Shown one piece after another: positions 22,439-31,331 of a DNA stretch of 64,000 nucleotides; the first letter of the stretch is position 1, and each line of letters opens with the position of its first letter. The DNA comes from Herpetosiphon geysericola. GTDB lineage: Bacteria > Chloroflexota > Chloroflexia > Chloroflexales > Herpetosiphonaceae. The position numbers and the translations under genes were made by a program. Below the pieces are notes generated by a model. The model saw only the letters and a program-made list of their open reading frames with translations, did no database searches and was not told where the DNA came from. Location: positions 1 to 64,000 of the forward strand of contig NZ_LGKP01000027.1 in NCBI RefSeq assembly GCF_001306135.1, read 5' to 3'.

Positions 22439-23485
22439 ATGGCAGATCGCGAACAAATTCGGCTGACCGAGCTAGCTTCCTGCGCTGGCTGAGCAGCCAA
22501 AATGGGGGCAGGTGCTCTCAGCAATTTAATAAGGAGCTTGCGCTTACCAACCAGTCCACAGCTGTTGGTTGGCCTCGATGTCAGCGATGATGCAGCGGTA
22601 TATCAAATCAATCAGCAGCAAGCCTTAGTCCAAACGGTGGATTTCTTTCCGCCAATTGTTGACGACCCCTATAGTTTTGGGGCGATTGCTGCGGCCAATG
22701 CGCTGAGCGATGTCTATGCGATGGGCGGCAAGCCGATTTTGGCCTTGGCCATTGCTGGCTTCCCACGTGATCTGCCGCCAAGTATTATTCAGGCAATTAT
22801 GCAAGGTGGCGCAGATAAAGTTGCCGAAGCTGGCGCTGTGCTGGCTGGCGGCCATACGATCATCGATAACGAGCCAAAATATGGCCTCTGCGTGACTGGT
22901 TTAATCGATCCCGCACTCATTACCCGCAAAGCCCAAGCCCAAGCAGGCAACCAACTCTATTTGACCAAAGCGCTCGGCACAGGCGTAATCAGCACCGCCA
23001 GCAAGCGCCAAGTTGGTGATCCAGCAGATCTTAAACTGGCCATCGAGAGCATGCTCAGGTTGAATCGACGGGCAGCGGAACATATCGCAGCGCTTGGCAG
23101 CATTCGTAGCGCCACCGATATTACTGGCTTTGGCTTGCTTGGCCATGGCTTGGAATTGGCGCGCAATAGCCAGGTTGGGCTGCGGATCAACAGCCAAGCA
23201 TTGCCGCTGCTCCAAGGAGCCTATCGCTACGCCCAAGCAGGGATCATGCCTGGTGGCTTGCATACAAATCGCGCTTATGTCGAGCAACAAATTCAGGTCA
23301 ACTATGCTGAGACAGTCGATCCAGCACTTCAAGCCTTGTTATACGATCCACAAACCTCTGGGGGATTATTGATTGCGGTGGATGCTGAGCATGCGGCTGC
23401 GCTCGAACAGCAATTTGCCCAAGCAGGTGACCCACTTTGGCCCATTGGCGAGATTATTGAGCAGCAATGCATCGAGGTTGTTTAA
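22439..23485 (+). CDS. selD: Selenide, water dikinase SelD, itself a selenoprotein (in-frame UGA = Sec18)
   Basis: 348-residue enzyme making selenophosphate from selenide and ATP, the donor for selenocysteine and selenouridine. Reading from the ATG at 22439 gives ...IRLTELASCAG-UGA-AAK..., aligning with the E. coli SelD start (IRLTQ...GCGCK): the TGA at 22490-22492 sits exactly at catalytic Cys17 and K21 matches Lys20. The frame continues open to 23485 with the conserved GLDVSDDAAVY, TVDFFPPIVDDPY, AMGGKP, LAGGHTI and DPQTSGGLL motifs. A frame beginning after the TGA would lack the catalytic residue. An AGG lies 7 bases before the ATG; an in-frame ATG at 22424 is possible. The gene implies a selenocysteine insertion system elsewhere in the genome. 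Confidence 0.93.
22489..22521 (+). promoter_or_regulatory. Candidate bacterial SECIS hairpin in selD
   Basis: Immediately at and after the UGA, GAGCA (22491-22495) can pair with TGCTC (22513-22517), and CC (22497-22498) with GG (22511-22512) around a bulged G. Two more pairs below are separated by a 2-base bulge. The 12-base loop contains a run of five G. A hairpin with loop G residues a short distance after UGA is what bacterial SelB needs. The fold was judged by eye. Confidence 0.5.
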
Positions 23486-23937: not shown

Positions 23938-25014
23938 TCAGTCCTTTTCGTTAATCGAAACCTGCTGATAATGCTTTTTAAATTCATCGAAACTAATTGT
24001 TGGATGCTCATAGCCCCAAGGATTATACATGGTCACAGTTTGCTTATTCAGATCAATGCTTTGAATAACATAGGCATGCCGAGCATCAACATCACTTGGA
24101 GGGTTTGAAAGCGACTTGTATGTACCAGCAGTAATGGCATCACCACTATCTAAGCGCTGCTTAAGTTGGGTAAAATCAACTTTTGACCCATTGATTTGTG
24201 AGGAATCCTTGCCAGTCAAGAGCGCCATAAATTCACCAGGATCTCCATAGGCAATCGCCGCAAAACTACCTTTATGTTGAGCATACGCCTTTTCAATTAA
24301 CATAGGCCAAATTTCTGAATCATTACTAAGTTGTGCATAGGCTGGAGTTTTACCATCTTTTGCATAAACAAAATCATTTGTAACCGTTACCTCAACTTTT
24401 GAGCGTTTACCGAAAAAGCCCAAAAATCCTTGCTCAGGATAAAAAGTTACAGTATATGTCCCATCACCATTGTCCCGAATAGCATTCCGAATTACATCAG
24501 GATTTGTTTTGGCAATCGCTGCTAATCCAGCCATTAAATAACAATCAGCAATCAATCCCTGATTAACATCATCGAACGCAATAGCATCACTATCACCAGA
24601 ACCTTTGGCAAAGGCTGGTTTATCTACTTTTCGATATTCAGGGTTACGCACTTCTGTACTTTTTGCTGCCGGATTGCCATACATACCAATGGTTGGCAGA
24701 TTAATCCCGTCAAAGGTTTGTTTAAAGAGGCTTGCAGCCTCAATTTCAGCCTCACGGAGCAGACCATTAACATTTAATGTAACTTGTTGCGCGGTGATTA
24801 AGACGGCTTTGAGTCGGCCCAAGGCTGGAAAAACATTCGTTTGCATTTCATTGAAAAAATGGTTGGCAGAGTCACCTTGCCAATCACGCAGCAATTGCTG
24901 ATACAACTGGTTTAATTGTTGATCCAATTGAAGCACTACATCGGCTTGGCGTTGGAAACGGTGGCTCAGTTCGCGCATGCATTCATACTCAATCAAGACA
25001 ATCGGAGCTGGCAT
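23938..25014 (-). CDS. WXG100 domain fused to a calpain-like cysteine protease
   Basis: 358-residue protein. Residues about 5-100 form a two-helix WXG100-like hairpin with WQG at 45-47, the fold exported by ESX/type VII-like systems. Residues about 130-355 match the calpain (C2) protease core: NQG at 151-153 then catalytic C158 in GLIADCYLMAGLAAIA, H313 in DARHAYVI, and N331 with W333 in NPWG. All three catalytic residues are present, so activity is plausible. The ATG at 25014 has AAGGAG 7 bases upstream; a longer reading to 25089 has none. There is no classical signal peptide. With the adjacent lipoprotein it looks like a secreted effector or toxin unit. Confidence 0.85.
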   Translation of the reverse strand: MPAPIVLIEYECMRELSHRFQRQADVVLQLDQQLNQLYQQLLRDWQGDSANHFFNEMQTNVFPALGRLKAVLITAQQVTLNVNGLLREAEIEAASLFKQTFDGINLPTIGMYGNPAAKSTEVRNPEYRKVDKPAFAKGSGDSDAIAFDDVNQGLIADCYLMAGLAAIAKTNPDVIRNAIRDNGDGTYTVTFYPEQGFLGFFGKRSKVEVTVTNDFVYAKDGKTPAYAQLSNDSEIWPMLIEKAYAQHKGSFAAIAYGDPGEFMALLTGKDSSQINGSKVDFTQLKQRLDSGDAITAGTYKSLSNPPSDVDARHAYVIQSIDLNKQTVTMYNPWGYEHPTISFDEFKKHYQQVSINEKD

Positions 25015-25186
25015 AGATGGACTCCTTGCTGAGGATTGAGAAACAATCAAGATTGTATGCAGAAAAGGGGCAACAAGCTGTTCAATCAATTACATAGTAA
25101 TATAACAAAAGCTTCAAACAATTGTCAATAATATAGCACTATAATTCAAGATAAACTGCGATAATTGATGCTAATGCTAGTTGGGC

Positions 25187-30697: not shown

Positions 30698-30803
30698 GGA
30701 GCCTAGCAGGACTCGAACCTGCGCCCGAAGCAATTCCTACTATCACCTCGCGAACGAGGAAGTTGCCGTAGAAGTCTTTGCTCTACCAACTGAGCTATAG
30801 GCT
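30698..30803 (-). ncRNA. tRNA-like RNA with expanded anticodon region (second Y RNA candidate)
   Basis: 106 nt on the - strand with an 8-pair acceptor helix (GGAGCCTA / TAGGCTCC), U8-A9, a canonical D arm (GCTC-AGTTGGTA-GAGC) and a canonical T arm (GCAGG-TTCGAGT-CCTGC). Between D and T arms are 55 nt instead of the usual ~25, with no 5-pair anticodon stem. This part holds a CCTCG-TTCG-CGAGG hairpin and a TTC-TAC / GTA-GGAA helix. CTTCTAC looks like an Arg(TCT) anticodon loop but its flanks do not pair. No CCA is encoded. It cannot be a normal tRNA. Bacterial Y RNAs are known to mimic tRNA D and T arms and to lie beside rsr, as here. Automated tools may call it a tRNA. Confidence 0.6.
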
Positions 30804-31331
30804 CCGTATTAAGGATGAAGGATGAGGGATGAAGGATGAAATCAAACCCACCATTGTTGCACAACCCACCAATTGTTCCGCTCGCCCATAGCCTCATTTC
30901 CTCTGCGCCTCTGCGTTAAAACCCTACCTCGCGCTCTTCGCAGTTTCGGCCTTCGTGGATCATCTCAGGTGATACTAACTCATGGTCACAATGGTTCTAA
31001 GAAGCGGCTGATTAAAGCCCGCATTCGCCACGTTAACATTGCACGGTTCCTCAGGTAGCTGCATACGACTCCTTCAAACGGTATGCTGAACGCAAGGCTG
31101 CTGAGGAAAAGGCGTGGAACTTCGGAATGAGCGAAGTATGTCCCACAAACACCTCAGCAAACTCTCACTTGTCTCCCACAAGCAGGCGAGGAAGTAAACT
31201 AGATTGAAAATACCCCACCTCGCCAGCTCGTTGATTCTCTCCCACAAGCGCTACGCCATTAATTTTGTAATCAAACATTGGCCAGCGATTCCTTGGACTA
31301 AAGTCAATGCCTGCTCCGCTCGTTCTCTCCC
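30804..31331. repeat. Intergenic region with heptamer repeats
   Basis: About 530 bases without a credible gene. 30808-30840 is a tandem of GGATGAA/GGATGAG heptamers; 30885-30965 carries the 'ctctgcgcctctgcgtt' and 'ctcttcgcagtttcgg' words found in the other repeat regions. Two similar 'ctctcccacaag'-like words near 31172 and 31237 are the only feature of the rest. Nothing else is recognised. Confidence 0.55.

Follow-up and report, generated by a model that had tools for sequence, protein, structure and literature searches.

The window, that is, the whole 64,000-base stretch of DNA analysed here (bases 1–64,000 of contig 16 in a genome of 6.14 Mb), holds a selD gene with a UGA inside its frame. 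The locus raises the question of whether this UGA is a stop or a codon for selenocysteine (Sec), and of where the protein begins. The original prediction held that selD encodes Sec at its own active site, a reading that the sequence comparisons support. The gene is almost certainly a standard Sec-type selenophosphate synthetase, decoded via SelB and a Sec-tRNA(UCA). A Sec-containing SelD in Herpetosiphon is of a known kind, as in many other bacteria. The features are collected in Table 1.

Table 1. Positions of the selD features and of the other genes located in this work (plain numbers refer to the window; the others to contigs or loci)
Feature	Position	Strand	Evidence
selD, selenide water dikinase, 348 residues, predicted Sec at residue 18	22439–23485	+	Translation, profile match, E. 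coli alignment
UGA, codon 18, predicted to be read as selenocysteine	22490–22492	+	Aligned with E. coli Cys17; TGA in relatives
ATG, codon 22, standard ORF-caller start; overlaps the hairpin foot	22502–22504	+	ORF list
Putative SECIS-type hairpin (bacterial form) of 7 base pairs, with AGGU loop at 22510–22513	22503–22520	+	Fold and low third-position variation
Calpain-family protease	23938–25089	minus	
tRNA-like gene	30698–30804	minus	Rfam tRNA, 49.8 bits
selA	C46:192732-194048		535 bits
selB	C10:16063-17928		320 bits
tRNA-Sec	C1:554512-554604		62 bits (cut-off 47); anticodon TCA (UCA in RNA)
The same tRNA-Sec gene in locus L085, near EF-Tu	L085:2013-2109		
EF-Tu gene	L085:2323-3579		
SelD of G040, TGC for TGA	L040:1531-1572		

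Reading frame and start of selD

From the ATG at 22439 to the TAA at 23483–23485 the sequence translates as one frame, in which codon 18 is the only TGA. The frame that had been claimed, running through this TGA to 23485, is seen both in the sequence and in its translation. In the table-11 ORF list, selD begins at the next ATG and has 327 amino acids; the annotation hazard pointed out for that ATG is therefore real, and a start placed there means the loss of the catalytic residue.

Comparison of codons 1–17 between the window gene and five congeners revealed 22 synonymous and no amino-acid differences, with the UGA unchanged. In the 30 bases 5′ of the ATG, just 7–12 positions agree, so the start at 22439 is backed by conservation from the ATG onward and by none upstream. 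The conserved amino acids and the unconserved upstream bases together indicate that translation begins at 22439 and continues through the UGA. In the remainder of selD, the differences among Herpetosiphon are likewise mostly at synonymous sites.

SelD family and active site

The protein matches the SelD family model TIGR00476 over its whole length (residues 8–318; 382.3 bits, cut-off 125) and has, in its N-terminal loop, both the Cys/Sec position and the Lys expected of the family. The motif is C15-x2-U18-x2-K21; U18 lines up with C17 and K21 with K20 of E. coli SelD (3u0o_A), the catalytic residues, in agreement with the loop assignment made in the original prediction. The E. coli protein (PDB 3u0o) belongs to the same family and shares the active-site Lys and the loop position, but has Cys17 where the window SelD would have Sec18.

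The likeness to Sec-type SelD extends to the profile match over the whole length, the predicted Sec at the catalytic Cys position with Lys three residues on, a SECIS-type hairpin after the UGA, and selA, selB and selC in the genome. Nothing essential differs from that type; the hairpin loop in the window is the four-base AGGU, in a register one base off that of the order.

Distribution and Sec/Cys state of selD

Across 41 genomes of the order (the window genome being G000), 33 selD matches over the cut-off were found in 32 genomes: 31 carry one in-frame TGA, one carries TGC (G040), and one is a fragment without the region. Since the in-frame TGA recurs in 31 of the 33 matches, it is neither chance nor a sequencing error. 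It is present in all six Herpetosiphon genomes, and the fetched loci of the order show TGA in 29 of 30 and TGC in that of G040.

The original prediction also stated that many SelD proteins have Sec at this site and proposed an alignment with Sec- and Cys-type homologues. Among the best 80 of 582 distant loci, 65 have TGA, 12 TGC and 3 TGT, nothing but Sec or Cys codons, in a set for which one search peptide carried Cys at the Sec site and thus favours Cys forms. In the available text of PMC1794560, formate dehydrogenase and SelD are the most widespread bacterial selenoproteins, and for a different member of the phylum the available part of PMC4918011 describes a selenophosphate synthase that contains a UGA.

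When placed in a tree together with 80 outside SelD sequences, the SelD proteins of the order formed one clade (SH-aLRT 96) and a single Sec/Cys change was needed. The SelD of G040 is nested among Sec-type sister rows; its TGC still has the SECIS-like GGGGCCAGGCGCCCT downstream, and selA is still present in this genome, as are a tRNA-Sec match and a TGA-bearing AhpC-TSA gene. This SelD likely represents a recent Sec-to-Cys change.

These data bear on the reading of the UGA as a true stop, by which SelD would start at the ATG of codon 22 without its active-site loop, either as a SelD-like protein that makes no selenophosphate or as a decaying gene. The standard ORF does begin there, and the weaker profile matches of SelD are to same-fold relatives with other functions (ThiL, HypE and others). 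However, codons 1–17 are constrained at the protein level, the rest of the gene too changes mostly synonymously, and the UGA is conserved throughout the order, with Cys codons as its only replacements, so that a true stop is very improbable.

The hairpin downstream of the UGA

The stretch 22502–22521 folds (z −3.47) into a hairpin that begins 10 bases after the UGA; a 36-base piece that starts at the UGA, folded alone, favours another fold (z −0.82). In the selD alignment of 28 sequences, 94.3% of the hairpin cells are paired, against 51–71% when the hairpin is slid along it. In the six rows from Herpetosiphon the pairing register is offset by one base from that of the remaining rows, and covariation in the hairpin was not significant in these 28 sequences (32 of 500 shuffles as high).

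Third-position variation was ranked over 177 four-fold columns of selD in 29 loci, leaving out L052, which the motif had missed. Among codons whose third position lies in the hairpin, codon 24 is the least variable of all columns, codon 23 is 6th and codon 26 is 11th; codons 19 and 27 come 123rd and 173rd. With the alignment read by eye, GGT is found equally far from the TGA in 20 of 28 selD rows, and at that distance also in the 12 formate-dehydrogenase-like TGA genes of family f2. A hairpin shortly after the UGA, together with this wobble constraint, points to a SECIS.

Selenocysteine decoding machinery

The original prediction expected, and depended on, a SelA/SelB/selC set; selA, selB and tRNA-Sec are all present in the same genome. 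The tRNA-Sec family model also picks up other long tRNAs: all 41 genomes have a match at E 0.001, and 31 of them have one over the cut-off. The identity of the tRNA-Sec in the window genome is settled by its UCA anticodon rather than by the model match alone. With the TGA unchanged in five congeners, these genes support the proposed decoding of Sec by the organism. In the window genome, this tRNA-Sec gene lies shortly before an EF-Tu gene (L085); the genes near them are presumably ribosomal protein genes.

In the order, selA occurs in 31 of the 41 genomes, and seven lack both selA and selD over the cut-off (G013, G016, G019, G025, G027, G031 and G036). In two, selA is present but no selD exceeds the cut-off, namely G023 (99% complete) and G024 (80% complete); G023 also has tRNA-Sec, which counts against the gene set being complete in every assembly.

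Leaky readthrough, in which a near-cognate tRNA (for Trp or Cys, for example) and not a Sec-tRNA reads the UGA, is compatible with the sequence alone, and three draft genomes have selD without a selA match (G006, G008 and G018; 75, 76 and 86% complete). This reading is hardly credible against the presence of selA, selB and tRNA-Sec in the window genome, the SECIS-type constraint in selD, and Cys as the sole alternative residue in the best 80 of 582 distant loci.

For Sec decoding, the known family suggests how insertion and catalysis would proceed. SelB on the hairpin would bring Sec-tRNA(UCA) to the UGA codon; SelD, with Sec18 and Lys21, would convert selenide and ATP to selenophosphate, which SelA would need for making Sec-tRNA.

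Gene context and other features of the window

The neighbours of selD are an arginase-family gene, genes for a PKD-domain protein and for a small protein lacking any Pfam match, and the calpain-family protease gene, none of them with a link to selenium. The N-terminal part of this protease may resemble a WXG100-type helix pair. No terminator-like sites were found in the selD context; promoter-like sites numbered 4, against 1.6 expected, with none directly 5′ of selD on its strand.

The tRNA-like gene was missed by ARAGORN at default settings and, with introns allowed, was called as a tRNA-Arg(UCU) whose anticodon loop carries an insert of 36 bases. It is found in all six Herpetosiphon genomes, with the insert core nearly unchanged and the changes in the acceptor stem matched. 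The insert is too short to be a group I intron.

Other uses of selenium

Neither SelU nor YqeB was found over the cut-off in any of the 41 genomes, and the window genome has no match to either; a YqeB match in G012 is just below the cut-off. In the window genome, there is no in-frame stop in those of its 8 Fdh-alpha matches that were listed, nor inside the 13 AhpC-TSA, 2 CMD and 6 thioredoxin matches. From the absence of SelU and YqeB matches and of stops in the listed matches of the four families searched, SelD may be the sole selenoprotein of Herpetosiphon.

In relatives, these family searches did turn up candidate selenoproteins. AhpC-TSA matches with one TGA occur in five of eight genomes (G010, G022, G028, G030 and G040), each of the five with UxxC at the TGA; the peroxiredoxin-like genes L223–L227, from five genomes of the order, read UPHC or UPFC there. 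Formate-dehydrogenase-like genes with one TGA are found in six family f2 genomes (G009, G012, G015, G018, G021 and G024).

A covariance model, R1, was built from the selD SECIS of the order in 28 of the 30 fetched loci; L040, with its TGC, and L052, which had escaped the motif, were left out. In a scan of 10 genomes, selD alone stood out. As a control, R1 was run on 12 loci whose formate-dehydrogenase-like gene has an in-frame TGA, and it missed the SECIS of every one, so the scan is uninformative on other selenoproteins. Seventeen weak hits outside selD were inspected, 16 of which begin with TGA; three (L122, L125 and L128) have at least 35 open codons on both sides, and L125 alone is from the window genome. 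It was rejected as a further selenoprotein, since its counterpart in G003 (L126) has just 15 open codons upstream and the frame is not kept.

Selenoprotein families known in prokaryotes number more than 110 according to the available part of PMC13188914. In the available text of PMC1794560 (Zhang et al. 2006), three selenoproteins were counted in Chloroflexi, and the selenouridine trait was not found there; SelD is the single selenoprotein in several species bearing YbbB; and it is proposed that formate dehydrogenase or SelD sustains the Sec trait, SelD by itself doing so mainly in species that use selenouridine. Herpetosiphon, in which SelD may likewise be the sole selenoprotein, resembles the YbbB/SelU bacteria so described, but its window genome has no SelU match, so that an explanation by which SelD is kept for selenouridine, as far as that text gives it, misfits Herpetosiphon. 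Herpetosiphon is named in the available part of PMC4918011 solely within a strain list, and our literature search, to which this statement is confined, found no published account of its SelD or Sec case.

Meaning for the Sec trait in Herpetosiphon

A closed loop of selA, selB, selC and selD kept across the genus, with SelD as the sole selenoprotein and no other known use of selenophosphate, is a tentative and rather unlikely picture; it would reflect either an undiscovered use of selenium or a self-maintaining relic. Such a relic could be what remained once a Sec peroxiredoxin or a Sec formate dehydrogenase like those of relatives had been lost. The searches made here turned up no Sec formate dehydrogenase among the matches listed and no SelU, which makes Herpetosiphon well suited to the question of what sustains the Sec trait where SelD stands alone.
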